Below, in pieces: positions 20,654 to 38,664 of a stretch of 53,833 bases of DNA. Source of the DNA: a virus; IMG/VR virus record IMGVR_UViG_3300030012_004039, positions 1 to 53,833 of that record; one strand, 5' to 3'. Under the pieces are notes generated by a model. The model was given only the letters and a program-made list of their open reading frames with translations. It ran no database searches and had not been told where the DNA came from. Numbering within the stretch: the stretch's first letter is position 1; every line of letters starts with the position of its first letter. A program made the position numbers and the translations under genes.

Positions 20654-21574
20654 TTAATTTCCCATCTGATAATCCGAAGGAGTTAGGTATTTTAATGGAC
20701 TTCCTTCAGGCCATAAATTTAATTGTTTACTATCATGTTCAATAACAGCTCTACCCTTAAGTTGCTCCCAATCTTTTTCAGGTCTAACTTCTAAATTAGT
20801 TTTCCAACCTGCTTCTAAAGTATTCATAGGCGCATTTAATTCTCTACCCATACTAATTAAAGCGTTTACATCTTTAGGAAAGCAAGTTCCTCCATATCCT
20901 AACTTACCATCAGGACCAGGTACATGTAAATGACTGTCACCTATCCTTCCGTCAGAAGCAAATCCTTCAATAGCAGTTTCCCAATCTATATTTAGTATTG
21001 AACCTAATCTTTTAAATTCATTCATAATCGATACTTTAGTAGCAAAGAAAGTATTATTCATATATTTAATATATTCAGCAGTTGTAGGGTCAGTTATAAT
21101 AAAGTGACGTTTCATAAAGCGTTGTTTATAAAGCTTAACTATTTTATTACATAGCTCTTTTTTACCTCCAAAAACTACTCTTGCTTGAGTAAGCATATCA
21201 AGTTTAGCAGTTCGTTCAGTTAAAAATTCAGGACTAAAAATAATATCTAATTTTTTAAAACTCTCAATTAATTTATTTGTAGTTCCTGGTAATATAGTTG
21301 ACTTAATAATATAAGTAGGTCCAGGAGTAACTGAATTAAATACATTTTCAATAAATGATATATCTTGTGAACCATCTTTTTTCATAGGTGTTGGTACAGC
21401 TATAAATACAAAATCACATTTACAAACTTCTTCTAGTGTATGTGAACTTCTTAATGGATCAACATCGTAAATTCTAACATCTGAAGTAGGGCTGAATGCA
21501 TATGCGGTCGATTCACCTACAAACCCATTACCTATAATACCTACTTTATATTTTCTTTTAATATTATTTTTCAT
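20654..21574 (-). CDS. UDP-glucose/GDP-mannose dehydrogenase family, short form
   Basis: 306 residues. The N-terminal Rossmann domain has GIIGNGFVG (12-20); VPTP (60-63) and the STILPGTT segment (92-99) follow the family pattern. Catalytic Lys170 is in AEYIKYMNN and the catalytic Cys231 in GYGGTCFPKDVNAL. These enzymes oxidise the C6 of a nucleotide sugar to a uronic acid in two NAD-dependent steps. The usual chain is about 430 residues; here most of the C-terminal nucleotide-sugar-binding domain is missing, so activity or substrate may be altered. It is at the downstream end of the sugar cluster and could supply UDP-GlcNAc uronate (WbpA-type step) or UDP-glucuronate. Confidence 0.85.
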   Translation of the reverse strand: MKNNIKRKYKVGIIGNGFVGESTAYAFSPTSDVRIYDVDPLRSSHTLEEVCKCDFVFIAVPTPMKKDGSQDISFIENVFNSVTPGPTYIIKSTILPGTTNKLIESFKKLDIIFSPEFLTERTAKLDMLTQARVVFGGKKELCNKIVKLYKQRFMKRHFIITDPTTAEYIKYMNNTFFATKVSIMNEFKRLGSILNIDWETAIEGFASDGRIGDSHLHVPGPDGKLGYGGTCFPKDVNALISMGRELNAPMNTLEAGWKTNLEVRPEKDWEQLKGRAVIEHDSKQLNLWPEGSPLKYLTPSDYQMGN

Positions 21575-22329
21575 ATTTTATAATCTTCAATCTTTTTTCT
21601 AGGATAAAATCCCCATTTATAATTAAACCATTCATGACATGCTTGTTCTTTTTGAACTTTAGTACCTTTTTCTTTAGGTGTAACTTCTGTTCCGTATGAT
21701 ACAAAATGATAGAAATGAACTTTTAAACTTCTAACTAACTCATAACCTGCTAGATTACACTTATGGAAAAATTCCCAATCAACTACCCAAGCACCGGGAT
21801 AAGATTCATCCCATCCTCCTACAGTTAAATAGTCTTGTTTAGACATAAATATTGGTAAAGTTGATCCTTTAGGGGTAAGTTTATTTTCATAGCAATCCTC
21901 AGCAAATTTATTAAACTGATCCATATCAAATTCTTCAGGCTCTCCAAATGACTTAATTATCATTTCATCATACATACTAGGATTTGGTTCGATCTGGTTA
22001 GGAGTAATAACTCTACCTTGTTCATAATCTTCTAAAAGTAATTTATCCCATTCAGGAGGAAATACGTTATCATCATTTACAATTAAAATTTTATCTGATG
22101 ATGCGTTATATACTCCTAGATTAGTTGCTTTACATAATCCTTGATTAGTTTCTAAATCTAGAATACATATTTTACCAACATACTTATCAAGTATATGTTT
22201 ATTTAATTGATAAAAACCATCTACTACAACTATAATTTCGTTCGATTTAACTTGATTATCTAATGCTGATTTTAAGCATATTTCTAGAGCTTCAGGAGCT
22301 TTATATGTTGGTATAATTACACTTATCAT
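21571..22329 (-). CDS. family 2 glycosyltransferase
   Basis: 252 residues. Begins ISVIIPTYKAPEALEICLKS, the GT-A/GT2 N-terminus, with the nucleotide-sugar-binding region EIIVVVDGFY, LILVNDD-like ILIVNDDNVFP (DxD equivalent, about 88-98) and an acceptor region WDESYPGAWVVDWEFFHKCN (catalytic Asp/Glu). It probably transfers a sugar to a growing glycan or protein in the cytoplasm. Overlaps both neighbours by 4 nt. Confidence 0.8.
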   Translation of the reverse strand: MISVIIPTYKAPEALEICLKSALDNQVKSNEIIVVVDGFYQLNKHILDKYVGKICILDLETNQGLCKATNLGVYNASSDKILIVNDDNVFPPEWDKLLLEDYEQGRVITPNQIEPNPSMYDEMIIKSFGEPEEFDMDQFNKFAEDCYENKLTPKGSTLPIFMSKQDYLTVGGWDESYPGAWVVDWEFFHKCNLAGYELVRSLKVHFYHFVSYGTEVTPKEKGTKVQKEQACHEWFNYKWGFYPRKKIEDYKI

Positions 22330-23174
22330 AACGAGCTTATATATTCCTTTAATCTATCTTTAGGTTCCCATCCTAATAATTTTTTAGCATCATCATTTTC
22401 TCTTTTTGTTACTCTATAATTACCAGGTTGTTCTTCTATATAGCATGCACCAACATCAAATCTTTCTTTGAACATTTGATAAACTTCATTTATAGAATAA
22501 TTATTACCTGTACCTAATTCCCAAGCATCGTGGTGTTCTATACATTTAGTTGATACTTTATATAACCCATCTACAATATCATCTACGTGAGTAAAATCTC
22601 TCCTCTGTTCACCATCACCTACAATAGTAATTTGTTCACCATCACGTACTTGTCTTCTCCAAATTCCTGTAACAGCAGCCCAATCACCATCTACTATTTC
22701 ATGAGGTCCATAAACATTATAAAATCTACATATTTCAATTTCCATATCATATGTGTTTTTATACATTTTACAAATCTCTTCTCCAAGATGCTTACTAGTT
22801 GCATATGGTGATTGAAAAGGATTGTGCCATCTAGAAGATGATCCTGCATAAATAACTTTAGTTTCATATTGCATAGCAAACGCTAATACTCTTTCAGTAC
22901 CAACCGAATTTATATTTATAGTAAGCGATGGTTGATCGAAAGAAGGTTGTATTCTACTTAATCCAGCTAAATGAAAAATAACATCATAATTATTTACAAG
23001 TTTATTATTAATTTCTAATATACATCCTTTTATATATTTACAGCCATCTTGATGATTCTCTACTAAACCTGAATCATAGTTATCTAATGATGTAACTTTA
23101 TGACCTTCTTTAATAAGTTTCTTAATTAAATTTGTGCCTATAAATCCAGCACCTCCTGTTACTAATATTTCCAT
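22326..23174 (-). CDS. NAD-dependent sugar epimerase/dehydratase (extended SDR)
   Basis: 282 residues from ATG 23174; the in-frame start at 23243 would overlap the upstream gene more. The Rossmann motif is TGGAGFIGTNL (about 6-16), the catalytic pair YATSK (YxxxK) with upstream AGSSS, and RFYNVYGP follows, as in GalE/RmlB-type enzymes. It interconverts or dehydrates nucleotide sugars such as UDP-glucose or UDP-GlcNAc in the cytosol. The exact substrate cannot be told. It is in the glycan operon, overlapping the neighbours on both sides. Confidence 0.85.
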   Translation of the reverse strand: MEILVTGGAGFIGTNLIKKLIKEGHKVTSLDNYDSGLVENHQDGCKYIKGCILEINNKLVNNYDVIFHLAGLSRIQPSFDQPSLTININSVGTERVLAFAMQYETKVIYAGSSSRWHNPFQSPYATSKHLGEEICKMYKNTYDMEIEICRFYNVYGPHEIVDGDWAAVTGIWRRQVRDGEQITIVGDGEQRRDFTHVDDIVDGLYKVSTKCIEHHDAWELGTGNNYSINEVYQMFKERFDVGACYIEEQPGNYRVTKRENDDAKKLLGWEPKDRLKEYISSL

Positions 23175-23878
23175 ACTTTTTCCCAATCTATAATAGGTGA
23201 TAACATATTTCCTTCTACGTGAGTTGAATATCCTGGTATGCATGATATTAAATTAGAACCTTTCTCCCATAGTTCAGTAAACTTGTCATGATCTTTTGTC
23301 CACTTTTCTACTAAATCACAATACTTAACATGTATATCAAAATGTTTTTTAAGTGTACTAAATTTACAAGCGTATGTATTAGTTGTTGATGGAGTAGATC
23401 TCCAATGAACACTTTTAGTAGCTATAACTTTTGAAGTTAAATTTTCATACATAGATAAATAATATTTATCAGGGTGATCATATAAAGTAAAATAATCTGC
23501 TCCTACCATATTTACACCCTCTTCTAATATATCTACCCATCCATATTTATGAAGATAATCATCTTCTACAAAATAAATTATATCTTCATCATTATATGGT
23601 TTTTCGATAACATAATTTAATAAATTTAAAAATGATTGAGCGTCATTACCACCTTTAATACTTACAGTTTTACAATCTTTATTATTTAAAAAATGATCTT
23701 CTATACTACCATTACCACTATCATGAAAAGCAGTATATTCTACTTTATCATTATACTTATCGTCAAATAAAGTTAGCATAAAATGATCAAATATTTTTTC
23801 TCTATCAAACCAAACAGGTCTAGGTTTACTAGCTGATTGTTCTGAGAAGTTACAATGTCTTTGAAATATTCTTATCAT
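23162..23878 (-). CDS. probable glycosyltransferase (GT-A type)
   Basis: 238 residues. Begins MIRIFQRHCNFSEQSASKPR; contains a Rossmann-like half and DEDIIYFVEDDYLHKYGW (about 96-113), where EDD sits at the DxD metal/nucleotide site position, then YFTLYDHPDKY and a C-terminal HV...GNMLSP. This resembles small glycosyltransferases found in capsule clusters. Overlaps the epimerase gene by 13 nt. Confidence 0.6.
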   Translation of the reverse strand: MIRIFQRHCNFSEQSASKPRPVWFDREKIFDHFMLTLFDDKYNDKVEYTAFHDSGNGSIEDHFLNNKDCKTVSIKGGNDAQSFLNLLNYVIEKPYNDEDIIYFVEDDYLHKYGWVDILEEGVNMVGADYFTLYDHPDKYYLSMYENLTSKVIATKSVHWRSTPSTTNTYACKFSTLKKHFDIHVKYCDLVEKWTKDHDKFTELWEKGSNLISCIPGYSTHVEGNMLSPIIDWEKVWKY

Positions 23879-24050
23879 TAATTAGTTCCCACATTTTACC
23901 TATTTCAGTATTTTCAGTACCTTTATAAATTTGTCCTGTTTCTTGATCGATCAGTAACCACTTCGAAGGACATAAAGTAATTATTTTTAATTCAATAGGC
24001 TTTTCTAAGTCTTTAACTTTTTTATTATTTATTATTCTAGTATTTCTCAT
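23850..24050 (-). CDS. hypothetical protein (66 aa)
   Basis: Reads MRNTRIINNKKVKDLEKPIE, then KWLLIDQETGQIYKGTENTE: a short beta-rich protein coupled to genes on both sides (overlaps of 4 and 29 nt) in the glycan operon. No function recognised. Confidence 0.55.
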   Translation of the reverse strand: MRNTRIINNKKVKDLEKPIELKIITLCPSKWLLIDQETGQIYKGTENTEIGKMWELINDKNISKTL

Positions 24051-24838
24051 AAGTACTTTAAAAAGTTTTCACCAAAATTATCAGAAATAAATTGTCTGCC
24101 GTCATCAGAAGAAGAGTGCATATTTAATGTTCGTTCATACTCTTGATTATCTCTTTCATTTTTATAGAAATCAATATTATAATCTACATGCTCTTTATTA
24201 TCAAAATTATATTCAGAGATATCAATAATAACACCTGGATTAATTTTTACTGTTCTATAACCTAATGAGTTGTAATGATTACCTATCTTATCACCTATAA
24301 ACTTATGCGGCCAGTCTTTCATAGTTTTATACCAAAGTTGAAATTTATCTAATCGAGCTCCAGCATAAAAAACAGTATCATAGATTTCTAAATTATTAAA
24401 TATTATTTTATCTTTAAAATTAGGATCAAGAGTTTTTCCTCTACAAAAATATCCGACTTTTCTTTCACGTTGTAATCCTAATGATCCTATTTTAACATCC
24501 GAGTTAAATACTTCTAAACATTGTGAAAACCATGTTTCATCAGGAAGTACCCAGTAATCGTTATCTAACGGTAAAATATAGTCAAAATCATTTTCTGAAT
24601 AATATTGAGTTAACAGTTTCCATGCACCTGGAACTCTCAAGTTTTCTTCAGGAAATATTAATCCTAACTTATACTTTTCTTGGTTTAATTCTAACCACTC
24701 TCTTGTACCATCAGTTGATCCATTATCGCAAACTATTATTTGTGAGTTAGCAGGCTTTACTTTATTTAAACATTCAATAGTTCCTTGCGTAAATGACTTA
24801 CGCTGGTATGATACAATATATATTAACAGTTTATTCAT
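24047..24838 (-). CDS. family 2 glycosyltransferase
   Basis: 263 residues. LLIYIVSYQRKSFTQGTIEC (3-22), IIVCDNGSTDGTREWL (about 34-49) and DYILPLDNDYWVLPDETW (about 85-103, DND as the DxD site) are classic GT2 motifs. A cytoplasmic transferase of the glycan cluster; donor and acceptor unknown. Confidence 0.8.
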   Translation of the reverse strand: MNKLLIYIVSYQRKSFTQGTIECLNKVKPANSQIIVCDNGSTDGTREWLELNQEKYKLGLIFPEENLRVPGAWKLLTQYYSENDFDYILPLDNDYWVLPDETWFSQCLEVFNSDVKIGSLGLQRERKVGYFCRGKTLDPNFKDKIIFNNLEIYDTVFYAGARLDKFQLWYKTMKDWPHKFIGDKIGNHYNSLGYRTVKINPGVIIDISEYNFDNKEHVDYNIDFYKNERDNQEYERTLNMHSSSDDGRQFISDNFGENFLKYL

Positions 24839-24839
24839 A

Positions 24840-25478
24840 TTAAAAAATTACTCTTATTACTTCAAACGTTTCAGCAAGATCTAAATCAACTTGATTCCCT
24901 CTAACTATTAATAATGATTTTATATACTCCTCATTAGTATAAGTTCTAAATGATTGTGAGTTATATTCTAAAATTGAATCAACTTTATTTTTTAGATCTT
25001 CTTCTTGTACTTCAATAAAACATCTATTACTTATATCTAAATTATTCCAAGGTAATTCAAAACCTAATATATTAGTCTTTTTAAACGCTCTTACTCCTTC
25101 ATTATATATAGTATTATGATCTTGATGGATATCATAAGAACTAGGTAAAAGAACTAAATCAGGTTGAATTTTCTTTCTTAATCTAATCATATGTTCTAAT
25201 ATATCTTGCCTACTTTCCGGCAACTTTCTAACTTTATATCTTAAGATTTCAATATTATCTTTAGGTATTCCTAATTTGCTTCCTGCATTAATTATTTCTT
25301 TCGACGTAATATCACTAGGAAACTCTTCAGGTATAGATTCTTCGCATATTGAAAAGGCTACATAATATACTTCTTTTCCTTCTCTACAAAATCTTGAAAT
25401 TGTAGCTCCTGCTCCTATCTCTCCATCATCTGTATGAGCTCCTAAAATTAATACTTTTTTAAATGCATTAGTTATCAT
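24840..25478 (-). CDS. PIG-L/LmbE family deacetylase
   Basis: 212 residues. The zinc site AHTDDGEIG (14-22) replaces the usual AHPDDE with a Thr and a one-residue shift (H15, D17, D18), and the second site DIHQDH (116-121) is intact. Family members remove N-acetyl groups from GlcNAc-type sugars. In this cluster it could prepare a free amine on an amino sugar for re-acylation by the neighbouring formyltransferase (25468-26451) or the acyltransferase (28834-29310). Overlaps the upstream gene by 11 nt. Confidence 0.8.
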   Translation of the reverse strand: MITNAFKKVLILGAHTDDGEIGAGATISRFCREGKEVYYVAFSICEESIPEEFPSDITSKEIINAGSKLGIPKDNIEILRYKVRKLPESRQDILEHMIRLRKKIQPDLVLLPSSYDIHQDHNTIYNEGVRAFKKTNILGFELPWNNLDISNRCFIEVQEEDLKNKVDSILEYNSQSFRTYTNEEYIKSLLIVRGNQVDLDLAETFEVIRVIF

Positions 25479-26451
25479 TTAATACCTCCTTATCATAATA
25501 TCCATACTTATTCAGATCAAAATAATGTATTAATTCTGAACCATTATTTAAAATATCTCCTTTATTCACATTACCTTCATAGTTATTAATTAATAATAAC
25601 CCTCCCATAACTTTAACAATAAATTTACCATTAGAGAATAATTCTACAACTTCACCATTAGATGCTTTTTCATAACTAAAATATAAAGTATCTAATATTT
25701 GTGCGTTATATATTATTAATTTTTTATTATTATTAAAAGTATATGCTCCATTAAATGGTTTAGTAACAGCTCTTATAAATCTTTGTAATGCATATATATC
25801 ACTATTCCAATCTATTAAACTATCACTTGGAGTTCTTTTAGGATAATATGTAGGTATAATATTTTTTTGCTTTTTAAGATTAAAATTATTATTAAAAAGA
25901 TCATTAATATTTTTTATAATTAAATAATACATTGATATTGTATTCTTAAAATGCATAGTTTCGCCTGTATCGTGTTCAGTTATATTAAACTTCACAGTAT
26001 CTAAAATATCACCTGAATCTATACCTGAATCATATTTAAATAAATTTGTATAGAAAGACTTTCTACCTTCTATAATTGACCAATTCATCGGAGACCTTCC
26101 TCTACCTAGAGGTAAATCCATACAACTTCCGTGCATTCCAAAAGCTCCTATAGAAAATGAATCTAATATTTCTCCTGGTATTAATCTTTGCCATCCTACA
26201 ACAAACGCAATATCTATATTTAAGCTACATATATATTTAATATCTTGAGAATCTTTTAAGCTGTATTTATTACAATGATATATATCTATATTATTAAAAT
26301 CCTGTAAATTGCTATAATCAGCTACCTCACATATCTTTCCTTTCTCAGGAGAAATAGTAATAATATTACTAATATTAATATGTTTTGATAAGTTATTTAT
26401 CAAAAATCTAGTTGTATTTTTACATCCAAAAATAGCTACCTTTTTATCCAT
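25468..26451 (-). CDS. sugar N-formyltransferase (Fmt/ArnA/WlaRD-like)
   Basis: 327 residues. The 10-formyl-THF-dependent core is visible: FGMHGSCMDLPLGRGRSPMN (about 104-123, catalytic His107) and DSGIDSGDIL (141-150, catalytic Asp145). The Asn usually two residues before His is Gly, as occurs in several sugar formyltransferase groups. A C-terminal substrate domain (about 200-327) follows. It probably formylates an amino group of a nucleotide amino sugar. It sits between the deacetylase and the oxidoreductase in one overlapping operon. Confidence 0.8.
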   Translation of the reverse strand: MDKKVAIFGCKNTTRFLINNLSKHINISNIITISPEKGKICEVADYSNLQDFNNIDIYHCNKYSLKDSQDIKYICSLNIDIAFVVGWQRLIPGEILDSFSIGAFGMHGSCMDLPLGRGRSPMNWSIIEGRKSFYTNLFKYDSGIDSGDILDTVKFNITEHDTGETMHFKNTISMYYLIIKNINDLFNNNFNLKKQKNIIPTYYPKRTPSDSLIDWNSDIYALQRFIRAVTKPFNGAYTFNNNKKLIIYNAQILDTLYFSYEKASNGEVVELFSNGKFIVKVMGGLLLINNYEGNVNKGDILNNGSELIHYFDLNKYGYYDKEVLNDN

Positions 26452-27451
26452 ATTTTATTCCAGCCTTATCATAAATATTTTTTATTAATATAAGAACATT
26501 TTTTGTTTCTTCCAACTTAAACTTATGAAGATTTTTATAAACATCAGGATGATTAGGACATGAACCTTGATAGGAACCATACGAGTTTGGATCTTTAGAA
26601 TATGAATAATGCTTTAGTAAATTTTCATATTTAACAGTTGAGCCGTTACTTAAAAAATTAGCTGATTCAATTACGTTTAGCGCTTTACCACCGATTTTTA
26701 AATAGCCATTTGATCCCATAAGTACTATAGAGCTTTCAATATTATGAGGTTCAGCTGCAATAGTAGATTCTATAGTACCACCGAAGCTTCCATAATCAGC
26801 TAATGAATAAACTGTATCTTCTATAACACCGTCTTTATGTTTAGTAGTATATGTATTAGTTCCTATAATTCTTTTAGGAAGACCTATAAGTAATTGTAGA
26901 ATATCTAAATAATGAATACCAGTTTCATATAATATACCACCACCTACTTTTGGTTCACCTCTCCAACCTGAAAAATATTCTAGTGGTCTTTGCCATCTTT
27001 GAGTAAATGAAAATCCTCGTATATCACCTAACAATTTTTGATTTAATATTTCTTTAGCTAACTCAACTGTAGGATTTAGACGAACTTGTAAAACGCAATA
27101 AGCATTTTTATTTTCTTTTCTAGCTACATATATAATATCTTCAATATCATTTGAAGTAAAAGCAACAGGTTTTTCAATTAATATATCACAGCAATTTTCA
27201 AGTGCAAAAATAGCCTGCTCTTTATGTAATGAATTAGGAGTAGCAATAACTATAAAATTAACATCTTCATTTACTATCATCTCTTTATAATCAGAGTATC
27301 CTTTTACTGAATATCTTGATGCTAGACTATCAACTAATGACGTTTGTATATCACATAGTGAGACTAACTTAAATTTTTTATTAGATTCTACTGCTTCAAT
27401 ATGTCGAGGAAATATTCCACCACAACCTATAATTCCAACTTTATATTTCAT
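26444..27451 (-). CDS. Gfo/Idh/MocA oxidoreductase (WlbA/WbpB-like)
   Basis: 335 residues. NAD site GIIGCGGIF (6-14), DILIEKPVAF (about 89-98; the EKP motif), and GGGILYETGIHYLDIL (about 168-183) are diagnostic of the family. WlbA/WbpB members oxidise C3 of UDP-N-acetyl-glucosaminuronate before a DegT aminotransferase installs the amine. Both a DegT enzyme (28020) and a matching hexapeptide acyltransferase (28834) lie two genes away, which supports that reading. Confidence 0.8.
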   Translation of the reverse strand: MKYKVGIIGCGGIFPRHIEAVESNKKFKLVSLCDIQTSLVDSLASRYSVKGYSDYKEMIVNEDVNFIVIATPNSLHKEQAIFALENCCDILIEKPVAFTSNDIEDIIYVARKENKNAYCVLQVRLNPTVELAKEILNQKLLGDIRGFSFTQRWQRPLEYFSGWRGEPKVGGGILYETGIHYLDILQLLIGLPKRIIGTNTYTTKHKDGVIEDTVYSLADYGSFGGTIESTIAAEPHNIESSIVLMGSNGYLKIGGKALNVIESANFLSNGSTVKYENLLKHYSYSKDPNSYGSYQGSCPNHPDVYKNLHKFKLEETKNVLILIKNIYDKAGIKYG

Positions 27452-28017
27452 TTGCTATACACGTAAAATACTTGAGGTATTGAAGAAAGAGAATCTTCAT
27501 CCCAATGTATTAATTTTAAATTATTTTTTTTAATTATATTTTTATAATCTCTAGTAAAACAATAGCTAGAACTTAATGTTTCGCCATTTTTATACCAAGT
27601 TATTACTATTACTTTTTTGCCTATTCTTGATAATTCTCTAATTAATTCATCAATTTCAGTTTCTGGGCTATGAATCAAAACTTCAAACGCACAAACAATA
27701 TCAAATTCATTATCTTTAAAAGGGGTTTTAATAGTATTATCTTTATCAATAATATATTGTTGAATTTTTAACCCTTGACTATCGCATTTTTGTTTTAATC
27801 TTTCTTCATACGCACTAGAAATATCAAAAAAGTTAATATGAGTCTGATCTTTATATAACTCTATCATACGTCCTATACCAGGACCATATTCTAATATATT
27901 TAAATTTTTAGTTATAAAAGGTTTAACTAAATTAACATGATTGTAAGTTTGAGACCTACAAAAATCATTGTTAGGATCTTTTCTATTATTCCAATAATTA
28001 ATTTTATTATATGTCAT
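27448..28017 (-). CDS. class I SAM-dependent methyltransferase
   Basis: 189 residues. Motif I ILEYGPGIGR (41-50), an acidic loop INFFDIS and motif IV-like EFDIVCAFEVLIHSP are typical of methyltransferase type 11 proteins. It may O- or N-methylate a sugar of the cluster's product. Substrate unknown. Overlaps the oxidoreductase by 4 nt. Confidence 0.75.
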   Translation of the reverse strand: MTYNKINYWNNRKDPNNDFCRSQTYNHVNLVKPFITKNLNILEYGPGIGRMIELYKDQTHINFFDISSAYEERLKQKCDSQGLKIQQYIIDKDNTIKTPFKDNEFDIVCAFEVLIHSPETEIDELIRELSRIGKKVIVITWYKNGETLSSSYCFTRDYKNIIKKNNLKLIHWDEDSLSSIPQVFYVYSK

Positions 28018-28019
28018 AA

Positions 28020-28829
28020 TTACCCTTTAAAATAATTTTCCTTAATAAATTTAGCCGTCTTTTCAGCTATAGGACAATCACCTGTAATACCTAAACGTTT
28101 AATAGCAGGCTGATCGTACACAACATAAGGATAATGACCATTCTTTATATTTCTAAAACCTAATTCAGCTTCTATTCCTTTCATATGTAACTTCATCTGA
28201 CTATAAGCTAACAAGCATAAAGGTTCAGCTAATCTAAAGTTAAAACCAATATACTCATGATGATATTTACTTGTTTGACCTTGGTTACATATAGCTCTAA
28301 CCTTATCAGAATCTATTCTAGAATCTTTAGGAATACAAATCATACCACCTTCAAAAGTATTTATATTTTTAGTCTTCTGAAATGAAAATGTACCTACATC
28401 AGACATCATACCTGCCATTCTACCTTTTGATTTAGCACCAAACGATTGAGATGTATCTTCGATAACTACTATGTTATGCTTATCAGCTATTCTATTTATT
28501 CTATCCATATCACAAACAGTACCAAATAAGTGTACAGGCATTATAGCTTTAGTTCTAGAAGTAATAGCTTGTTCGATAAGATTAACATTTATTAAATAAT
28601 CATCTTCATTTATATCTACAAACACTGGTTTAGCACCTGCAATAATTATCGATGTAACAGTAGATATAAAAGTAAATGGAGTAGTTATAACTTCATCTCC
28701 TGGTTTAAGATCCATAGACCATAAAGGAGCAATAATAGCACTACTTCCATTATTTACTGCTATACAATCTTTAAGATCAAAACGTTCCTTAACGTAATCT
28801 TCAAATATATTCCTTATAACTATAGGCAT
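28020..28829 (-). CDS. DegT/DnrJ/EryC1-type sugar aminotransferase, shortened
   Basis: 269 residues against about 370 for the family. The PLP core is complete: NNGSSA (26-31), DEVITTPFTF (45-54), VVIEDTSQSFGA (121-132; Asp125) and SFQKTKN with the Schiff-base Lys154. The N-terminus is about 20 residues short. After QMKLHMKGIEAELG the chain jumps to HYPYVVYDQPAIKRL and ends, so most of the small C-terminal domain (about 90 residues) seems deleted. It would transfer an amino group to a keto nucleotide sugar, if active. Confidence 0.8.
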   Translation of the reverse strand: MPIVIRNIFEDYVKERFDLKDCIAVNNGSSAIIAPLWSMDLKPGDEVITTPFTFISTVTSIIIAGAKPVFVDINEDDYLINVNLIEQAITSRTKAIMPVHLFGTVCDMDRINRIADKHNIVVIEDTSQSFGAKSKGRMAGMMSDVGTFSFQKTKNINTFEGGMICIPKDSRIDSDKVRAICNQGQTSKYHHEYIGFNFRLAEPLCLLAYSQMKLHMKGIEAELGFRNIKNGHYPYVVYDQPAIKRLGITGDCPIAEKTAKFIKENYFKG

Positions 28830-28833
28830 TTAT

Positions 28834-29310
28834 TTAATCTCTTATCTCTTTTATTTTAGCTGGATTACCATATGCTAGAGCTCCTTCAGGCATATCTTTA
28901 GTAACTACAGAACCAGCACCTATAAGTACGTTTGATTCTATAGTATTGCCACATATTATAGTTGAATTAGCTCCTATAGAAGAAAAGCTTTTAATTAAAG
29001 TTTTTCTAAAATTTACTCTAGTCCATTCACCTTGAGCTTTAGGATAGAGATCATTAGTAGTAATTACATTAGGTCCAATAAAAACATTATTCTCTATCTC
29101 TACACCTTCATATAAAATACTATGATTTTGTATCTTACAATCATCGCCAACTATAACTCCTGGTCCAATATGAACTCCTTCTCCAATCACACAATTTTTA
29201 CCTATTTTAGCTCCTTTACTGATATGAGAGAAAGCCCATATTTTAGTTCCCTCTCCAATAACTGTATTGCCGTCAATTATTGCAGTTTCATGTATAAAAG
29301 TATTTATCAT
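28834..29310 (-). CDS. hexapeptide acyltransferase (WlbB/WbpD-like)
   Basis: 158 residues of left-handed beta-helix hexapeptide repeats (GEGTKIWAFSHISKGAKIG, then VIGEGVHIGPGVIVG, VLIGAGSVVTKDMP). The sequence IHETAIIDGNTVIGEGTKIW closely follows the 3-N-acetyltransferases that finish UDP-GlcNAc(3NAc)A synthesis. A trimeric enzyme using an acyl-CoA donor is expected. It lies directly upstream of the aminotransferase. Confidence 0.85.
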   Translation of the reverse strand: MINTFIHETAIIDGNTVIGEGTKIWAFSHISKGAKIGKNCVIGEGVHIGPGVIVGDDCKIQNHSILYEGVEIENNVFIGPNVITTNDLYPKAQGEWTRVNFRKTLIKSFSSIGANSTIICGNTIESNVLIGAGSVVTKDMPEGALAYGNPAKIKEIRD

Positions 29311-30614
29311 AAGTCCCAGTCCTTCATTAATTGTAAAACAAAACTACTATTTTTATTTAAATCTTCTAAAGTAAAAGTTTCAGGAAATTTTAAACCAATA
29401 TTATTAGCATAATAAATAGCAGTTTGCTTAAAAAATCTATTAAACGTTTTATAATTAGCAGTAAATCTACTATTAATCATTAAAGTACCTCTACCCCATT
29501 TAAAATCCATTATAAATTTTAAACTATCAGATGCCATTGCTATATCCATAGTCTCACTATTGGATAATACTAAACTTGATGCAGTGATATCATATTTTAC
29601 ATTGATTCCTAAATCAGTAAGATGAATTATAGATGGTGTTAAATAACCAGCTTTTTTTGTCCTTAAAATAGCTTGCCAGTTATTTTTTGACTTTATTTTA
29701 GTAATCATTTTATTAAATGATTCTTGTAACTGATCAAAACTATAAGACGGTGAACTTACAAAAGGTCCTTCTATTTTACTTTGAAAATCTTTTTCATACA
29801 AATCTATATTAGTTTTATTTAATTCTTCAGACCATTCTGAATCTAATGTCCATGTATCTTCAGGATAAAAAACTAAAGTTTTACAAGGTAAAGTTTTTAA
29901 ATATTTATATGATTCTTTTATTCTAATTGTATTTTCATTCCAGTAATTATTTTCTTCATGACAAAAATAAATAAAACTTGCAAATGGTACAATGTATTTA
30001 GGATCTAAAACTTCAACTTGCTTTGATATTTGATCTTCAATAATTTCTCTAGCAATCTTAGGTCCAGTTAAATCACCTTTATTACCAACCCAATTAGCAT
30101 AACCAAACTGAGTATAAAGAACATCTATACTTCCTAATTTATCTTTTACTTCTTGTAGCATCTCTATATCATACAATCTACAATCATTAAGATTTAATAA
30201 AGAATTATCTTTATCTTTAGCATATAGCCATGAATCAAATCCATCAGTACCGTTTACAATAGTTAAATCATTACATAGTTTTTCTTCTTTAAAAGGTTCT
30301 AATTCTCTAACTTTAAATCCTTGATTAATGCAAAAATCTTTGACTTTATTATCGATAGTTTTTTGAAATAGAATAGTTATATCTTTTCTTTTTTCTTCAG
30401 GAATAGATTTAATATCAGGAACACTAAAATGGTCTGGATGTTCATGGGAGTACCATATATAATTAAAATCTAAATCAGCTAATTTAAATTTAGGGGTAGT
30501 TAGTAGATCCCAACCTTCATTAAATACTTTACCAGTATACCAAGGATCACAAACTATTCTGCTTTTCCCTGATTCTATTAATATGGACGAATGTCCTAAA
30601 AATTTTGTTTTCAT
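29307..30614 (-). CDS. metallo-beta-lactamase-fold protein (CMAH/UlaG-like)
   Basis: 435 residues. Begins TKFLGHSSILIESGKSRIVC with CDPWYTG, then the metal motif SHEHPDHFS (HxHxDH, 57-62). This N-terminal layout resembles the UlaG/CMP-sialic-acid-hydroxylase branch of the MBL fold; a second half with TPSIIHLTDLG and INSRFTANYKTFNRFF is a family-specific extension. It is the first gene after a strong promoter and heads the nucleotide-sugar gene run, so it probably acts on a sugar or lipid-linked sugar. Reaction unknown. Confidence 0.7.
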   Translation of the reverse strand: MKTKFLGHSSILIESGKSRIVCDPWYTGKVFNEGWDLLTTPKFKLADLDFNYIWYSHEHPDHFSVPDIKSIPEEKRKDITILFQKTIDNKVKDFCINQGFKVRELEPFKEEKLCNDLTIVNGTDGFDSWLYAKDKDNSLLNLNDCRLYDIEMLQEVKDKLGSIDVLYTQFGYANWVGNKGDLTGPKIAREIIEDQISKQVEVLDPKYIVPFASFIYFCHEENNYWNENTIRIKESYKYLKTLPCKTLVFYPEDTWTLDSEWSEELNKTNIDLYEKDFQSKIEGPFVSSPSYSFDQLQESFNKMITKIKSKNNWQAILRTKKAGYLTPSIIHLTDLGINVKYDITASSLVLSNSETMDIAMASDSLKFIMDFKWGRGTLMINSRFTANYKTFNRFFKQTAIYYANNIGLKFPETFTLEDLNKNSSFVLQLMKDWDL

Positions 30615-30641
30615 ATTATATTCTCTTTTTTATTATTATAC

Positions 30642-30672
30642 ATAATATATGAAAAAATTTTCATTTAAGCAA
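30642..30672 (-). promoter_or_regulatory. Bacteroidota-type promoter of the sugar-modifying operon
   Basis: Minus strand TTG (30672-30670), 20 nt, TATATTAT (30649-30642), 27 nt before the ATG at 30614. The -33 box overlaps the end of the upstream glycosyltransferase gene. It would drive the overlapping gene string from 30614 down to about 20654. Confidence 0.65.
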
Positions 30673-31672
30673 TTAATTCCTTAAATTGTTTAACTATATT
30701 TTTAGGGTTGTAAGCATCCTCAATCCACATACCAACACCTTGCATATATTCAATCATACTTTCTTTAGATATATTTTTAATAAACTGAGTTAATATTTCT
30801 CTTAATTCTTCCTCGTTACTAGTCAACGGAACAACAGGAGTTTCATACTTACCAGTTAATTTATATAAAGAATCAGAACTATTATTAATTGTACTGAATG
30901 TTAAATTAGATAGTAATAATGCTTCTAAAGATGCTAATCCATACCCTCCACAGGTTTCATTTATTTGATCTAAATAAAATAGCGATTTTTCTTTTTCTTT
31001 AATAACTTCAGAGTAAGGTATATTTTGTAATACTTTATATTTAAATAATTTTGGATCTAAATTTAAACTACTAATGATTGAGTTAAAAGTAGATGTACCT
31101 TTAATACTTGCTTTTGAAGGTATATGTAATATTGTCCAAGGCAATGTATCTATTTTTTTCTTAAAGGTATCAATAAAATTTTTAAAATTAAATTCTTTAA
31201 TATATTGATAAGGTAGAAGTGGTAGATCATTATTATTTTTAGGAGATAATCTATATAAATCTATAGCATAAAAATGTTTAAAAATTTTATCTCGCAATGG
31301 ATGTATATTATAATATCTAAATGAATCTCTATAACAGGTGCCTGGATGCCATATACAAAACTTTGCATCAATATCAAATAAATTTAAATGATATATTGAG
31401 CTAAATTTTTCAATAGTTGTATATAAATTTTGAGTAGCATATTCTTCAGAAAAAATTATATAATCACTTTCCAATAAAAATTTTTTAGAATCTTCTATAT
31501 CCTTCTTATTATATGTTGATAAATCATAATCATGCGGTGTTGTATAATTATACGGATGCTTTTCTATACAAATAGATTTAGATACAATGTCATCACTATG
31601 CTTATTTAGGCAATAAGAGTATTCAGTTAATACGTTAGCAAAATCAGCTATAGATAAAAAACTTATTTTCAT
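30665..31672 (-). CDS. probable GT-B glycosyltransferase
   Basis: 335 residues. N-terminal Rossmann-like half without strong motifs; the C-terminal half has TILHIPSKASIKGTSTFNSI (about 181-200) and NETCGGYGLASLEALLLSN (about 257-275), corresponding to the donor-binding GxxEGFGxxxxEAxxxG region of GT4-type enzymes but with E replaced by GGYG. A divergent family-4-like transferase is the best reading. Confidence 0.6.
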   Translation of the reverse strand: MKISFLSIADFANVLTEYSYCLNKHSDDIVSKSICIEKHPYNYTTPHDYDLSTYNKKDIEDSKKFLLESDYIIFSEEYATQNLYTTIEKFSSIYHLNLFDIDAKFCIWHPGTCYRDSFRYYNIHPLRDKIFKHFYAIDLYRLSPKNNNDLPLLPYQYIKEFNFKNFIDTFKKKIDTLPWTILHIPSKASIKGTSTFNSIISSLNLDPKLFKYKVLQNIPYSEVIKEKEKSLFYLDQINETCGGYGLASLEALLLSNLTFSTINNSSDSLYKLTGKYETPVVPLTSNEEELREILTQFIKNISKESMIEYMQGVGMWIEDAYNPKNIVKQFKELIA

Positions 31673-32295
31673 ATTGTTTCATAAAAAGCGTTTTGCTTCT
31701 CTTGCCTTCCGATATTTTTAGGGTGATATAAAGCATATTTTTCTTCAGCTGGAAGATTTGCAAATTTAGTATATCCTTTTAATTGTTCATGTACCGGTTT
31801 AATCCAATATATATTTTCATTATTTTTATATATTCTCATCTGCCAGTCAGGAAAGTTAACCCAGCCATATTCATTCATTTTCCATCCCCATTTAGCGATA
31901 TGCTGATCAGTAATACCAGCAACAGTATTAACTCTAGGAACCCAATACGCTTCTATATCAGAATTAGATTCTAATATATACGGTAGCGCTTTAATTAAAT
32001 ATTCACTTGGTTGTTCATCTGCATCTATTTGAAATATCCAATCACCGCTACAACTTTTATTTAAGTTATTTTTATATGCTGCAAAATTTTTATTTAATGC
32101 AAATTGATTCAATGTATATTCAGACATTGGTTTATTTTCAAATTTTTCACATATATTAATAACTTCTGGAGTTGCATTCATATCCATTTGAACTACAACT
32201 TGATCTTGTTCACGTTTATTTTCCAATAAAAATGATAATAATTTTTCTATTTCTTTATGTTCATTACATACTGTAATCGCGTAACTTATTTTCAT
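31669..32295 (-). CDS. family 2 glycosyltransferase
   Basis: 208 residues. ISYAITVCNEHKEIEKLLSF (3-22), a shortened donor region, and GDWIFQIDADEQPSEYLIKA (about 83-102; DADE as the DxD site) mark a GT2 enzyme of the WaaE/KdtX-like small type. It ends with a Trp-rich acceptor region (WGWKMNEYGWVNFPDWQMRI). Coupled to neighbours by 4-nt overlap. Confidence 0.8.
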   Translation of the reverse strand: MKISYAITVCNEHKEIEKLLSFLLENKREQDQVVVQMDMNATPEVINICEKFENKPMSEYTLNQFALNKNFAAYKNNLNKSCSGDWIFQIDADEQPSEYLIKALPYILESNSDIEAYWVPRVNTVAGITDQHIAKWGWKMNEYGWVNFPDWQMRIYKNNENIYWIKPVHEQLKGYTKFANLPAEEKYALYHPKNIGRQEKQNAFYETI

Positions 32296-32296
32296 A

Positions 32297-32749
32297 CTAT
32301 CTTTCCACTTGTTCGTTTAAATCAGGCCCAAAATCATAATCTAAAAGTTGAAGTCCTGTTATATTTTTTAAGATAAGAGTTCTATAACTAGCATTTAATT
32401 TATTAGCTAGTAATGGTTTTACTTTACCTTCATAAAGTCTTCTAGATGATATAGCCATATTAATTTTAGGTAAATTTACTCCTCTAGCTTTTTGAAATCT
32501 AGGAATAACTCTTATACCAAATAATTTAGCAAATGATCTATAATCAGGAATAGTAATCTCATTCATACTTAAACAATGTAGTTTAGGATTTTTATCTACA
32601 GGCCATCTTGGATTAAGTACAGTAGCTACGTATTGTTTACCTTCTCCAGCTACCGTCTTATATCTAAAAGTAACGACCATACCCTTTTCCAATTGAGTAT
32701 TGTTTATTATATGTCTTGTATTTCCTAATTTTAAATGTACTGCTAACAT
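32297..32749 (-). CDS. hypothetical protein, possible structural (150 aa)
   Basis: Beta-rich N-terminal half with a small barrel pattern (QLEKGMVVTFRYKTVAGEGK, YVATVLNPRWPVDKNPKLHC) and a basic helical C-terminus (FGIRVIPRFQKARGVNLPK, RRLYEGKVKPLL). It does not look like a sugar enzyme, although it sits between glycosyltransferase genes. With the next gene it may be a virion component pair. No family named. Confidence 0.55.
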   Translation of the reverse strand: MLAVHLKLGNTRHIINNTQLEKGMVVTFRYKTVAGEGKQYVATVLNPRWPVDKNPKLHCLSMNEITIPDYRSFAKLFGIRVIPRFQKARGVNLPKINMAISSRRLYEGKVKPLLANKLNASYRTLILKNITGLQLLDYDFGPDLNEQVER

Positions 32750-33132
32750 TATTGCATTCCTAAATATACTAGCGCTTCTTTGAATTGATCAAACTTTTTT
32801 GCATCTTCAATTGCTACTCTAGTAGTATAAGTTTTACCTGATTCATCAATAGAAAATTTACTAGCTTCACTAGAATCTATTCCAACTACAGGAGCAACTA
32901 ACCATGAATATTTATCAACTGTACCATCAGGAAACAAAATTCCAGCTGGAAGAGTAATAGTAGTAAGGTACCAATTTCTACCACCTTCTACTTTTTTAGT
33001 ATCTCTTATTAATTGCGTAACAGTAGCTTCAAATTTTTCACAAGCGTTACTATTTTCAGTAAATGATTCTCTAGTAAAATAGCCAGTATCTATATCTAAT
33101 TTATCTTCACCTTCATTTATAATATTACTCAT
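32749..33132 (-). CDS. hypothetical protein, possible structural (127 aa)
   Basis: Acidic N-terminus (IINEGEDKLDIDTGYFTRES), then a beta-rich core (WYLTTITLPAGILFPDGTVD, SWLVAPVVGIDSSE) and a short helical end. One-base overlap with the following gene and 8-nt overlap with the upstream glycosyltransferase. No enzymatic motif seen. Confidence 0.55.
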   Translation of the reverse strand: MSNIINEGEDKLDIDTGYFTRESFTENSNACEKFEATVTQLIRDTKKVEGGRNWYLTTITLPAGILFPDGTVDKYSWLVAPVVGIDSSEASKFSIDESGKTYTTRVAIEDAKKFDQFKEALVYLGMQ

Positions 33133-34408
33133 TTACTTTCTCCATTTTAGGTAATTTAAGTGTAGGTAATTTTAACTTAACAGGTTCTGGAATATTATCA
33201 TTTAATATCTCAGAAAATTGCTCTTTCATCATATCAAGAGTAAAATTATCTTTAACGTATTTTCTTTGCTTTCTAGATGTAGTTAAAAAAGTTTTATATT
33301 TTCTATACACATCTTTAATTAATTTACTAGCGTAACCATAATCAGCAAAAAACCATTGAGATCCTTCTTCAATAAGACCTTTTTGTAATACTGATTTATG
33401 AACTTGAGCTAATTTACCAGGAATTCTGAAACCATAATTATTTAAGAAATCAACATGACCTGACCAGTTAGTAGCAATAGTTGGTTTACCTGTTACAGAA
33501 AATTCTAATAGAGGTCTACCGAATCCTTCTCCATGAGTTAAAGATAGCATAGCTTTAACTTTAGGATGATTATATAAACTATTCATTTCTTGAGGAGTTA
33601 GATCACCGTGAAGTAAATATATTTTAGGCATTTTATCGATATTACCACCCATTCCGTTATATATAGATTTTATTCTTTTTTCCATATCATATCTATCCAT
33701 AACACTAAAAGTAGCTGAACTAGTTTTAAGAATAAGGGCAGGTTTCGTTTGCATATTTTTAAAGGTATGAATAAATGTTTGAATAGTTCCACCTATATCT
33801 TTTCTATCATGACCAAGTTCTCCTTGAAGCCAATGACCTACACATAAAAAACAAAAGCTTTCTTTTATTTCATCAATACCCTTAATAGGAATTAATTCAT
33901 CACTAGGAGTTTTATCAAATATCTTTGTATCTAATCCTTCAAACAGTACATGAATAGGCTTTTCTAACTGGAAACTATTTACTACGTTTCCTTGTTTATC
34001 TTTTTCGTCATATTTAGACTGCTCGAATACCATTTTAGAGTGATGAGAAGGAACAATATTTATATCCATATTATTCATACCTTTAATCCACTCGATCGAA
34101 ACTCTATCAGTTTCAATACCTGCAGTAATTCCAATATTAAATTTACCAACAGCTTGAAATTCATTAGGTACTGATATTTGAATCCATACATCAGGTTGAG
34201 AAGTAAGAGGTGTACCCATTGGCATAACTAATTTAGCGATTTCAGGCTCATTTTTAAGCTCAGTTCTAGGACACCAACCCCATCTTTGATCAATTATTTG
34301 AATATTAAATTTATCCATGGATATTAAACTTTTAATAATATCTCTAGAATGATCACCATATCCACTTCTACTAGAAGCTGGACAGCTTATAACTAAATTT
34401 TGCTTCAT
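33125..34408 (-). CDS. family 4 glycosyltransferase
   Basis: 427 residues. N-terminal PASSRSGYGDHSRDIIKSLI, a GT-B acceptor-domain start; C-terminal donor site LTHGEGFGRPLLEFSVTGKP (about 291-310, the EGFGRPLLE motif) and TNWSGHVDFL. A GGAGTACTAAT ribosome site precedes the ATG. It retains all donor motifs, so activity is likely. The acceptor may be a glycan or a virion protein. Confidence 0.8.
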   Translation of the reverse strand: MKQNLVISCPASSRSGYGDHSRDIIKSLISMDKFNIQIIDQRWGWCPRTELKNEPEIAKLVMPMGTPLTSQPDVWIQISVPNEFQAVGKFNIGITAGIETDRVSIEWIKGMNNMDINIVPSHHSKMVFEQSKYDEKDKQGNVVNSFQLEKPIHVLFEGLDTKIFDKTPSDELIPIKGIDEIKESFCFLCVGHWLQGELGHDRKDIGGTIQTFIHTFKNMQTKPALILKTSSATFSVMDRYDMEKRIKSIYNGMGGNIDKMPKIYLLHGDLTPQEMNSLYNHPKVKAMLSLTHGEGFGRPLLEFSVTGKPTIATNWSGHVDFLNNYGFRIPGKLAQVHKSVLQKGLIEEGSQWFFADYGYASKLIKDVYRKYKTFLTTSRKQRKYVKDNFTLDMMKEQFSEILNDNIPEPVKLKLPTLKLPKMEKVNE

Positions 34409-35808
34409 ATTAGTACTCCTCTATTTATTTTAGGCAATGGTAAAGTCATATCTTTTACTATATATCTATCTCTAGGTTTAAAATTATTTAAACATCTATC
34501 AATACTTTCAATTGCACTATTACACATACCTTTAGCTGAAAATCCTTTTAATATAGCCCACTCTCTACCTTCTATACCTTTCTTTAATCTATTTTCAGGA
34601 GTAACATCCCACCAATATTTTAAACCATTAGTTATTTGATTTATCGATACTCTAGAATCATAAATATAAGGAGTAAGAGGAGAGCCTTGCAAGTTCATTT
34701 GCGGCCATAGTGGATAAGTCCAACTTCCATGATCGGTAGACATATCACCAGTTGAGTTACTTGGCATTTCAGCTGTAAAATTATCTACTGTAGTATCTTT
34801 ACCATTAACTTTGAATCCCATTTGATCTTGTAATCCACCTATAACAGTAGCTATAGTAGGTGTACCTGCCATCATTGATTCCATATGAGATAATCCGAAT
34901 CCTTCAGCTGAAGAAGGGTTACAAGTAACATCAGCACAGTTATATAAGTAATTTAATTGTTTACTATCTAATTTATTATTACTAAACGCTACTTTATAAT
35001 CACATAAAGCATTTGTTACTGCAGGGAGATCAGTTCCTGCATTATCTACTGGATCAGTATGCAAAACTAATAAACATTTTTCAGCATCTTCTTTAGGTAA
35101 TTTTTCGCAGAATTTTTGATAAGCTAAAATTAAATCAGAAGTTCTTTTTCTCTGAATATTTCTACTATTAAATAAAGCTATAAAATTAATATCTTGACCT
35201 CTAGTTAATTCTTTTCTAAACTGAATAAAATCTTTATCAGATCTATCGATAGGGTAAAATATATTCTCATCGATACCATGAGGTACATAAGTAAGATCTA
35301 CACCTTCTTTTCTTGGTTTATTAACGCAAACATGCTTATTAATACCATAAGTTTGTTTTGAAATAGCCATTAATAAATCACATGATTCGTAGAATGGCTC
35401 ATTCCAATGAGGAAACGGAAGATCATCCCATATATTATAATACATGAGAGGAATATTTTGTCTCAACTCATGCTCCATATTATATAGCCATTGCCAGAAT
35501 CTAGGATCAGTAAAATGAACGATACCTTCAATACCTTTCTCTAAATTCATAACTTCTCTTAAAGTTTGCTCATTTCCATATCCATCAACAGGATAAACTT
35601 TAACATAAGCATCATCTATATTCTTTTTTTCATTTATCTCTTTCGATAAATCAAATATTTTTCCTTTATCAGGATGTTTAACTGCACCACCTATCTGAAC
35701 CCAGTCATATTTATGAACAGTTCCTAATACTAATTCTTTAGACATTGTACCAACGCCTGAAGGTATTCTAATATCATCAGATAGTAGTAATAATTTTTTC
35801 TTTGACAT
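34405..35808 (-). CDS. family 4 glycosyltransferase
   Basis: 467 residues. LLLLSDDIRIPSGVGTMSKE (5-24) is the glycine-rich acceptor-domain loop; NSRNIQRKRTSDLILAYQKF (about 215-234) and NPSSAEGFGLSHMESMMAGT (about 301-320) are the donor-domain motifs of GT4 (E-x7-E). First gene of the glycan block in transcription order, following the RHH gene. Overlaps the next transferase by 4 nt. Confidence 0.85.
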   Translation of the reverse strand: MSKKKLLLLSDDIRIPSGVGTMSKELVLGTVHKYDWVQIGGAVKHPDKGKIFDLSKEINEKKNIDDAYVKVYPVDGYGNEQTLREVMNLEKGIEGIVHFTDPRFWQWLYNMEHELRQNIPLMYYNIWDDLPFPHWNEPFYESCDLLMAISKQTYGINKHVCVNKPRKEGVDLTYVPHGIDENIFYPIDRSDKDFIQFRKELTRGQDINFIALFNSRNIQRKRTSDLILAYQKFCEKLPKEDAEKCLLVLHTDPVDNAGTDLPAVTNALCDYKVAFSNNKLDSKQLNYLYNCADVTCNPSSAEGFGLSHMESMMAGTPTIATVIGGLQDQMGFKVNGKDTTVDNFTAEMPSNSTGDMSTDHGSWTYPLWPQMNLQGSPLTPYIYDSRVSINQITNGLKYWWDVTPENRLKKGIEGREWAILKGFSAKGMCNSAIESIDRCLNNFKPRDRYIVKDMTLPLPKINRGVLI

Positions 35809-37314: not shown

Positions 37315-37645
37315 TACTAACTATTTGAGCTATTATTCCATATATTGATAGATCTTGAAAAGTATCTTTTATCGATTCAGTTTTAACATTAGCATTCTTT
37401 TTAAATAATACTAACTGCTTTAATCTATTTATTTTATCATTTATTCTAAACCAAAGTCCAGTCATTGCAACATGAACTTCTTCTTCGGTATCTAAATTAG
37501 TACCAACTGATATATTACCTTTACCATAATCCATCATTTTACTAGCAAACAATTCATACTGCTCTAACTGTATTCTTTCATACGCTTTCGCTATTTCAGG
37601 ATAAGTTTCTTTAAGTTGATCTCTACTATTTAAAAATTTCTTCAT
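37298..37645 (-). CDS. nucleotide modification associated domain 1 (DUF1599-like)
   Basis: 115 residues, helical. The segment FASKMMDYGKGNISVG (about 33-48), then AMTGLWFRINDKINRLKQLV (about 60-79) and ESIKDTFQDLSIYGIIAQ (about 91-108) match the helical DUF1599/Nmad1 pattern with its E/D pairs, related to all-alpha NTP pyrophosphatases. The family is associated with phages carrying modified nucleotides; it may remove a competing dNTP or handle the modified one. Good Shine-Dalgarno (GGAGATACTT). Confidence 0.7.
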   Translation of the reverse strand: MKKFLNSRDQLKETYPEIAKAYERIQLEQYELFASKMMDYGKGNISVGTNLDTEEEVHVAMTGLWFRINDKINRLKQLVLFKKNANVKTESIKDTFQDLSIYGIIAQIVSNGKWK

Positions 37646-38664
37646 ATAAGTATCTCCTTATTTATCTTCATGCTCTCTAATAGAGCATTCTCTTTAGCTT
37701 TCGCCTCTAACATAATATCAATATCTAATCCATAAGTATTGATAGGCTTCTTACAATAATCAGCATGAGCAGTAGCTCTTACTTTATCATAATCTTTCTT
37801 TAGTTTACTAAAAGTAGGCCAGTCATCTAAATCATCGAAATCTATATTATTATTATCACACATATCCATAAGAGTCTTTCTCTTCTCTTCTCGTCTAGAT
37901 TCAGAGTAATGAGTACATTGAGTTATACCTTCAGGCCAAGTAGTAGCAGCTAAACGTAAAGCTTCTTCTTCAGTTAATCCATCAGTATGAAAAGTATGAT
38001 GAAAATAATCAAACGTAATCGGTATACCGATAACAGTATAAAAATAATCATATAACATTTGAACTGACCACATACCAGGTTTATCATCATTCTCAATAAC
38101 TAATCGCTTCTTAAGATTATCAGATAAAGACATCCATGCCTTGATCCATCTATCAGCAGTCGCTTGAGCGTCACCATACATACCACCAATATGAATATTT
38201 ATTTTATTCTCAAACGAAGGTTCAAAGCCCATCATATCAAACATTTCACTATGACGTTCTAAACCAATAATAGACTTCTTAACTACATCAGGATTAGGAG
38301 ATCCTAATACAGTAAAAGGTCCAGGATGAGTAGTTAAACGATGCCCATGCTTTCTAGCATATTCACCGGCTTCAAATAAAGCATCACATATCTCATCATA
38401 CTGAGGTAGTTTTTTAAGTTCATAATGATCATGCCAAGGTATAAGTTCAGAACCTACCCTGAATAATCTAATACCAAAGTCTTCATTCCACTTTAGATAA
38501 GTTAATAAATCTTTAGCGTTCATTAAAGCTCGCTCACCAAGTAAATGGTAATTATCAGGCCACCAAGTAGCTTTACGAGCAGTTCTAGAGGTAGTAACAG
38601 GTCCACCTAACTTCTTCGGGCGACCAGTTAACCCCATATTTACACATGCGTATCCTATTCTCAT
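37642..38664 (-). CDS. uvsE: UV damage endonuclease (UvdE/UvsE)
   Basis: 340 residues. MRIGYACVNMGL, then FRVGSELIPWHDH, the LTTHPGPFTVLGSPN strand and NKINIHIGGMYGD, VIENDD and FDYFHH motifs match UvdE TIM-barrel enzymes, which nick DNA 5' of UV photoproducts using metal ions. The His/Glu/Asp ligands appear intact. A marine surface-water phage would benefit from such repair. It has its own promoter (38679-38709) and a short A-rich leader without Shine-Dalgarno. Confidence 0.9.
   Translation of the reverse strand: MRIGYACVNMGLTGRPKKLGGPVTTSRTARKATWWPDNYHLLGERALMNAKDLLTYLKWNEDFGIRLFRVGSELIPWHDHYELKKLPQYDEICDALFEAGEYARKHGHRLTTHPGPFTVLGSPNPDVVKKSIIGLERHSEMFDMMGFEPSFENKINIHIGGMYGDAQATADRWIKAWMSLSDNLKKRLVIENDDKPGMWSVQMLYDYFYTVIGIPITFDYFHHTFHTDGLTEEEALRLAATTWPEGITQCTHYSESRREEKRKTLMDMCDNNNIDFDDLDDWPTFSKLKKDYDKVRATAHADYCKKPINTYGLDIDIMLEAKAKENALLESMKINKEILI

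Follow-up and report, generated by a model that had tools for sequence, protein, structure and literature searches.

A T4-like phage carries an apparently exchangeable glycan cassette with a compact aminotransferase and a predicted route to a 2,3-diamino sugar

Which sugar does a phage make when it carries a bank of sugar-nucleotide genes beside glycosyltransferases of its own, and on what does it place that sugar? The question is raised by IMG/VR virus record IMGVR_UViG_3300030012_004039, which has 104,035 bases and of which bases 1–53833 are hereafter called the window. The record comes from a T4-like aquatic phage and encodes a DNA polymerase and GroEL besides a T4-like terminase, portal, major head protein, and tail sheath; its capsid protein is nearest to those of Flavobacterium phage immuto and Microcystis phage Mel-JY01 (55–57% identity), which makes a Bacteroidota host plausible. 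At 20654–35808, a single minus-strand run consists mostly of sugar genes with all open reading frames intact. We favor, with moderate confidence, the explanation that this run is a swappable glycan cassette with two sugar-nucleotide modules that makes a 2,3-diamino sugar, most likely for a virion protein.

In the mechanism that we propose for this relative of immuto, one module would lead to a UDP-2,3-diamino-2,3-dideoxy sugar. Its WlbA/WbpB-like Gfo/Idh/MocA nucleoside diphosphate-sugar 3-dehydrogenase (26444–27451; this and all following cassette genes lie on the minus strand) would oxidize C3 of a UDP-N-acetylhexosamine, either UDP-GlcNAcA from the host or UDP-GlcNAc, a compact WbpE-like DegT sugar 3-aminotransferase of 269 amino acids (28020–28829) would set an amino group at C3, and a WlbB/WbpD-like left-handed beta-helix N-acetyltransferase of the hexapeptide type (28834–29310) would acetylate that group. 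A PIG-L/LmbE N-deacetylase (24840–25478) and an ArnA-like sugar N-formyltransferase (25468–26451) could swap N-acetyl for N-formyl, and an S-adenosylmethionine-dependent methyltransferase (27448–28017) would contribute a methyl. The other module, a short nucleotide-sugar 6-dehydrogenase of UDP-glucose type (UGD; 20654–21574) and an SDR protein that is probably a UDP-uronate 4-epimerase (22326–23174), would provide UDP-GlcA and UDP-GalA, and soluble phage glycosyltransferases would join the sugars, with a virion protein as the most likely acceptor. The analysis shows gene identities, homology, intact active-site residues, selection, and neighborhoods, whereas the exact substrates, the order of acylation, and the acceptor are what we infer in this scheme.

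A preliminary description of bases 20654–30614 had read these genes as a near-complete Wbp route. The genes that it named are indeed there as intact minus-strand open reading frames far above Pfam thresholds, and the families that score well above them are UDPG_MGDP dehydrogenase, Epimerase (PF01370, 150 bits from residue 26), PIG-L (PF02585, 64 bits, with metal motifs HTDD and HQDH present), formyltransferase (PF00551/PF02911, with ArnA as top solved relative), GFO_IDH_MocA (PF01408, 88 bits), methyltransferase (PF13649, 40.6 bits), DegT (PF01041, 240 bits over profile positions 29–235 of 360), and Hexapep (PF00132, 114 bits). Its WbpB-, WbpE-, and WbpD-like steps hold up as well, given that the nearest solved relatives are WlbA, sugar 3-aminotransferases including WbpE, and WlbB and that the genes are grouped in the order hexapeptide enzyme, DegT, methyltransferase, Gfo/Idh; the deacetylase, formyltransferase, and methyltransferase genes adjoin this set. 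A Gfo/Idh profile made from 11 viral members scores 180 bits against 3q2i and 167 bits against 3q2k, which are WlbA of Chromobacterium and Bordetella, respectively, and 127 bits against the next solved structure, so that the phage enzyme is nearest to WlbA by a clear margin of at least 40 bits. The top solved relative of the hexapeptide enzyme is 3mqg/3mqh, matched over nearly its full length at 120 bits, and 3mqg is a WlbB-type enzyme. In the bacterial pathway, C3 of UDP-GlcNAcA is oxidized by WlbA/WbpB, aminated by WbpE, and acetylated by WbpD (PMC10622841). Like the Wbp/Wlb loci of Pseudomonas aeruginosa and Bordetella pertussis, the phage thus encodes WbpB/WlbA-, WbpE-, and WbpD/WlbB-like enzymes together. 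It differs from these routes to UDP-GlcNAc(3NAc)A and UDP-ManNAc(3NAc)A in that no WbpA-type dehydrogenase or WbpI was found, in an aminotransferase that is ca. 98 residues shorter, and in the extra formyltransferase, deacetylase, and methyltransferase.

The absent WbpA step bears on whether the product is a uronic acid or a neutral sugar, for which we consider the balance to be near even. Of 13 cellular loci that carry a WlbA-like Gfo/Idh, 7 also have a WbpA-type dehydrogenase, compared with 0 of 41 viral Gfo/Idh loci (Fisher p = 1e-5; profiles built for this analysis, flanks of ca. 8 kb for viral and ca. 6 kb for cellular loci), a contrast that is indicative, with viral and cellular sets collected by different routes and some loci being near-duplicates. 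The WbpI 2-epimerase (PF02350) had no match in the 104-kb record, which is a fragment, and every absence claimed from this record is weakened by that. A uronic acid would be the product only if the host supplies UDP-GlcNAcA, which is possible: In Porphyromonas gingivalis, a member of the Bacteroidota, the Wbp genes are scattered in the genome and their function is backed by mutants, and in Bordetella pertussis, the wbpA homologues lie apart from the wlb cluster (PMC4031482). For a neutral product, UDP-GlcNAc itself would be oxidized and aminated at C3 to give UDP-GlcNAc3NAc or an N-formyl form, a serious possibility that we nevertheless hold with some reserve. Such a route would resemble that of GnnA and GnnB, which carry out C3 oxidation and amination of UDP-GlcNAc for lipid A sugars. 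Its use of Gfo/Idh 3-oxidation and DegT amination without 6-oxidation would fit the missing WbpA and the count of 0 among 41 viral loci, and the top NCBIfam model for the phage Gfo/Idh is an archaeal UDP-GlcNAc 3-dehydrogenase (104 bits). Unlike the GnnA/GnnB route, the phage has a WlbB-type N-acyltransferase. The nearest solved relatives, the WlbA enzymes, moreover use UDP-GlcNAcA (PMC10622841), a compound that can come from a host.

As to where the glycan goes, we found no predicted membrane protein in 20654–35808, the single borderline match being a soluble segment in DegT, and neither an initiating transferase (PF02397) nor a flippase (PF01943) in the 104-kb record. Because this lipid-carrier machinery was not found, we infer that a lipid-linked surface polysaccharide is disfavored and that cytoplasmic transfer, most simply onto a virion protein, is favored. 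The same absences speak against the idea that the cassette remodels the surface glycan of the host in the course of infection, for instance as a barrier to superinfection. We regard this as rather unlikely, even though the gene make-up is similar to that of O-antigen loci and differs from one related phage to another. Phage serotype-conversion operons carry membrane proteins, unlike this cluster.

The enzyme on which the route to a 2,3-diamino sugar depends for its amino group is ca. 98 residues shorter than its cellular relatives. Compared to the 361-aa DegT of a wbp-like operon (L106), it lacks residues 1–32, 243–278, 291–301, and 344–361, which amounts to 32 residues at the N-terminus, 47 in the small domain, and 18 at the C-terminus, and losses of this kind could suggest a decayed or non-catalytic remnant. 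We think this very unlikely, since scans of viral contigs found 48 compact DegT loci whose 45 distinct sequences, almost all of 266–291 aa (the exceptions are one of 318 aa with an upstream start and one split over two frames), form a single clade with a support of 100 and a long stem (FastTree; root unsure). The residues of the pyridoxal phosphate site, D125, Q128, S149, K154 (the pyridoxal phosphate lysine), N197, and R199, are invariant in 43 viral sequences, and pairwise dN/dS is 0.04–0.09 where synonymous sites are unsaturated, which indicates strong purifying selection. An AlphaFold2 model made with these 43 viral sequences is confident (pLDDT 89.9, pTM 0.90) and superposes on WbpE over 259–261 residues at 2.0–2.4 Å with Z 30. 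WlaRF/WlaRG, WbpE, Pcryo_0616, and QdtB, all of them sugar 3-aminotransferases, match at Z 30, and rows within one Z unit count as tied, so that the predicted fold is sugar 3-aminotransferase-like with WbpE not singled out.

A local truncation or assembly error of the compact DegT was rejected because 45 distinct viral sequences have a similar length and its start is immediately preceded by a stop codon. A recent copy from a host was discarded too, as the best 80 cellular relatives measure 333–499 aa and, in one bacterial order (148 genomes, reached via a Flavobacteriaceae genome), the open frames of the 48 listed matches span 362–459 aa. Among the sequences searched here, the compact form was found only in viruses. 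The 104-kb record contains no second, full-length DegT; full-length DegTs are present in some viruses that also carry the compact form, and named phages with DegT matches (Yong-DA, DLP5, RN05-S, and S-CAM7) have forms of 348–431 aa. The literature on phage sugar-nucleotide genes and virion glycosylation, in which subscription journals were mostly outside coverage, yielded nothing on the compact DegT or the cassette.

The preliminary description had assigned the sugar dehydrogenase as WbpA and thus included the 6-oxidation step in its near-complete route, and here we part from it. A 6-dehydrogenase indeed sits in the same cassette as the WbpB-, WbpE-, and WbpD-like enzymes and retains the GGxCFPKD motif. 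However, UGD consists only of the N-terminal and central domains (PF00984/PF03721) and lacks the three-domain layout of nucleotide sugar 6-dehydrogenases, with the C-terminal UDP-binding domain (PF03720) found neither in UGD nor anywhere on the 104-kb record and aligned viral forms measuring 267–306 aa. Its NCBIfam scores are those of UDP-glucose dehydrogenases (AglM 125 and TuaD 110 bits vs 43 for WecC and 23.5 for TviB), and this order is reversed in the dehydrogenases that occupy the WbpA position of cellular operons. In most viral relatives, UGD adjoins an SDR gene. With these scores, the absent UDP-binding domain, and the SDR neighborhood, we reject the reading of UGD as WbpA, and together with the lack of a WbpA-type enzyme at viral Gfo/Idh loci, this leaves a cassette-encoded Wbp route including 6-oxidation with little likelihood.

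The SDR gene close to the dehydrogenase, the metallo-beta-lactamase-fold gene discussed below, and the shortening of the aminotransferase are features beyond the preliminary description. The annotated SDR open reading frame extends to 23243, and the Rossmann fold starts at Met24 (about 23174). The protein has no Asp/Glu after its catalytic Ser and is therefore not a 4,6-dehydratase or UXS, which favors an epimerase, and we read UGD and SDR as a pair that probably supplies UDP-GlcA and UDP-GalA. Shortening affects several of the sugar enzymes in these phages, SDR among them, and the interval between its catalytic Ser and Tyr is ca. 13 residues shorter than in GalE.

Placement of the sugars on phage DNA bases is scarcely probable, for while T-even phages glucosylate their DNA, Shewanella phage Thanatos has a pentose on cytosine (PMC12838424), and the relative immuto carries 7-deazaguanine DNA genes, the thymidylate synthase/hydroxymethylase family (PF00303) was not found in the 104-kb record and seven transferases plus acyl chemistry go beyond known needs of base modification.

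Several points weigh against a virion-directed 2,3-diamino sugar cassette as we propose it. Genes missing from the 104-kb fragment may sit elsewhere in the genome, the residues lost from the compact DegT lie partly in its small domain, and its specificity for C3 is predicted from similarity. About a dozen viral loci carry Gfo/Idh and the hexapeptide enzyme with no DegT within 8 kb, though some of these contigs end before 8 kb; the two genes are adjacent or nearly so, with DegT unrecognized within ca. 8 kb, at loci L192–L197, L203, L205, L206, L012, and L005. Some compact DegTs adjoin SDRs and not Gfo/Idh, and the source of the keto sugar may therefore vary between loci.

The neighborhoods otherwise link the three core enzymes. 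Among the 45 distinct viral loci, the gene immediately upstream of DegT encodes the hexapeptide enzyme in 13, the one immediately downstream encodes Gfo/Idh in 14, and an SDR follows DegT in 9; L199 and L200 have a contiguous hexapeptide enzyme–DegT–Gfo/Idh arrangement, and the nearest cellular DegTs often sit within dehydrogenase–Gfo/Idh–hexapeptide enzyme–DegT operons. In six viral loci (L127, L144, and others), the gene after the compact DegT encodes a WbqC-family-like protein of 228–250 aa that starts with GIHQPNF.PW.

The seven glycosyltransferases of the preliminary description are the right count for 20654–35808, but only three fall within 20654–30614. Four pass the Pfam cut-off, namely GT2 enzymes at 21571–22329 (PF00535, 71 bits), 24047–24838 (PF00535, 45 bits), and 31669–32295 (PF00535, 35 bits; 46% in immuto) and a GT4 enzyme at 34405–35808 (PF00534, 45 bits; 46% to an immuto glycosyltransferase), while the GT4-like protein at 33125–34408 (47% to immuto gp90) scores below it with PF00534 at 23 bits. 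Two putative glycosyltransferases have no Pfam match and were assigned by motif and synteny, one with an EDD motif at 23162–23878 (syntenic homologues in viral relatives and, at 46%, in Microcystis phage Mel-JY01) and one of GT-B type with an E-x7-E-like motif at 30665–31672 (syntenic in relatives). A search of the 104-kb record with PF13439 added nothing.

Three of the glycosyltransferase genes (31669, 33125, and 34405) form a conserved GT4-GT4-GT2 border that related phages retain while differing in the adjoining sugar genes. By this pattern, the cassette has the appearance of an exchangeable locus, apparently with a logic similar to that of O-antigen loci. Immuto (Immutovirus) shares the PD-(D/E)XK-GT4-GT4-GT2 backbone at 46–47% identity, followed by sugar genes, but has no Gfo/Idh and encodes a full-length DegT plus a separate DegT-like protein of 214 aa. 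In the latter (L165:22504–23148, annotated WecE), the N-terminal part is missing and the sequence stops shortly after the GWNF motif. BLAST gives no match between it and the DegT of the window, and DegT compaction may therefore have occurred more than once in phages.

The formyltransferase has Gly at the catalytic Asn position of the usual Asn-His-Asp triad; G-x-HGS stands in three of three close viral members, those of L121 and L141 share the Gly, and Asn is retained in other viral formyltransferases. The metallo-beta-lactamase-fold protein of 435 aa (29307–30614; PF13483, 33.5 bits) could not be equated with a known enzyme, having no solved relative below E 0.05, and a homologue with 59% identity lies near a viral pair of Gfo/Idh and hexapeptide enzyme in L207. 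By eye, which is not a test, its N-terminal motif resembles that of CMP-Neu5Ac hydroxylase, and a role in modifying N-acyl groups is only a guess. Beyond the cassette, the window encodes a UvdE UV endonuclease (37642–38664, 182 bits) and a GroEL-like chaperonin (40127–41761), which scores 537 bits against the phage groEL family.

A precedent for such a virus-encoded route comes from Mimivirus and Megavirus, which encode their own amino-sugar pathway (aminotransferase L136 and acetyltransferase L142) beside virion-glycan glycosyltransferases (PMC4691112). The phage cassette likewise has an amino-sugar route next to glycosyltransferases, whereas the giant viruses infect eukaryotes and make viosamine, a 4-amino sugar, through a dehydratase; the solved chain of L136 has 356 aa and is not of the compact kind. 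More broadly, we tentatively propose that T4-like phages, many of them aquatic, evolved a minimal sugar 3-aminotransferase, a fold-type-I pyridoxal phosphate enzyme pared by ca. 98 residues and not found in the cellular genomes searched, and use it with a WlbA-type dehydrogenase, without WbpA, to put 2,3-diamino sugars on their virions that would be exchanged between phages in the manner of serotype cassettes. The pathway chemistry is already known; what is new is the shortened aminotransferase and the viral setting. If this is true, phages would make rare bacterial diamino sugars with streamlined enzymes of their own, as giant viruses make viosamine, and the missing WbpA step would pose the question whether the host provides UDP-GlcNAcA or the product is neutral. 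From the compact aminotransferase, one would learn how much of the DegT fold sugar transamination can do without, and sugars varied through an exchange of cassettes would suggest that diversifying pressure acts on virion glycans.

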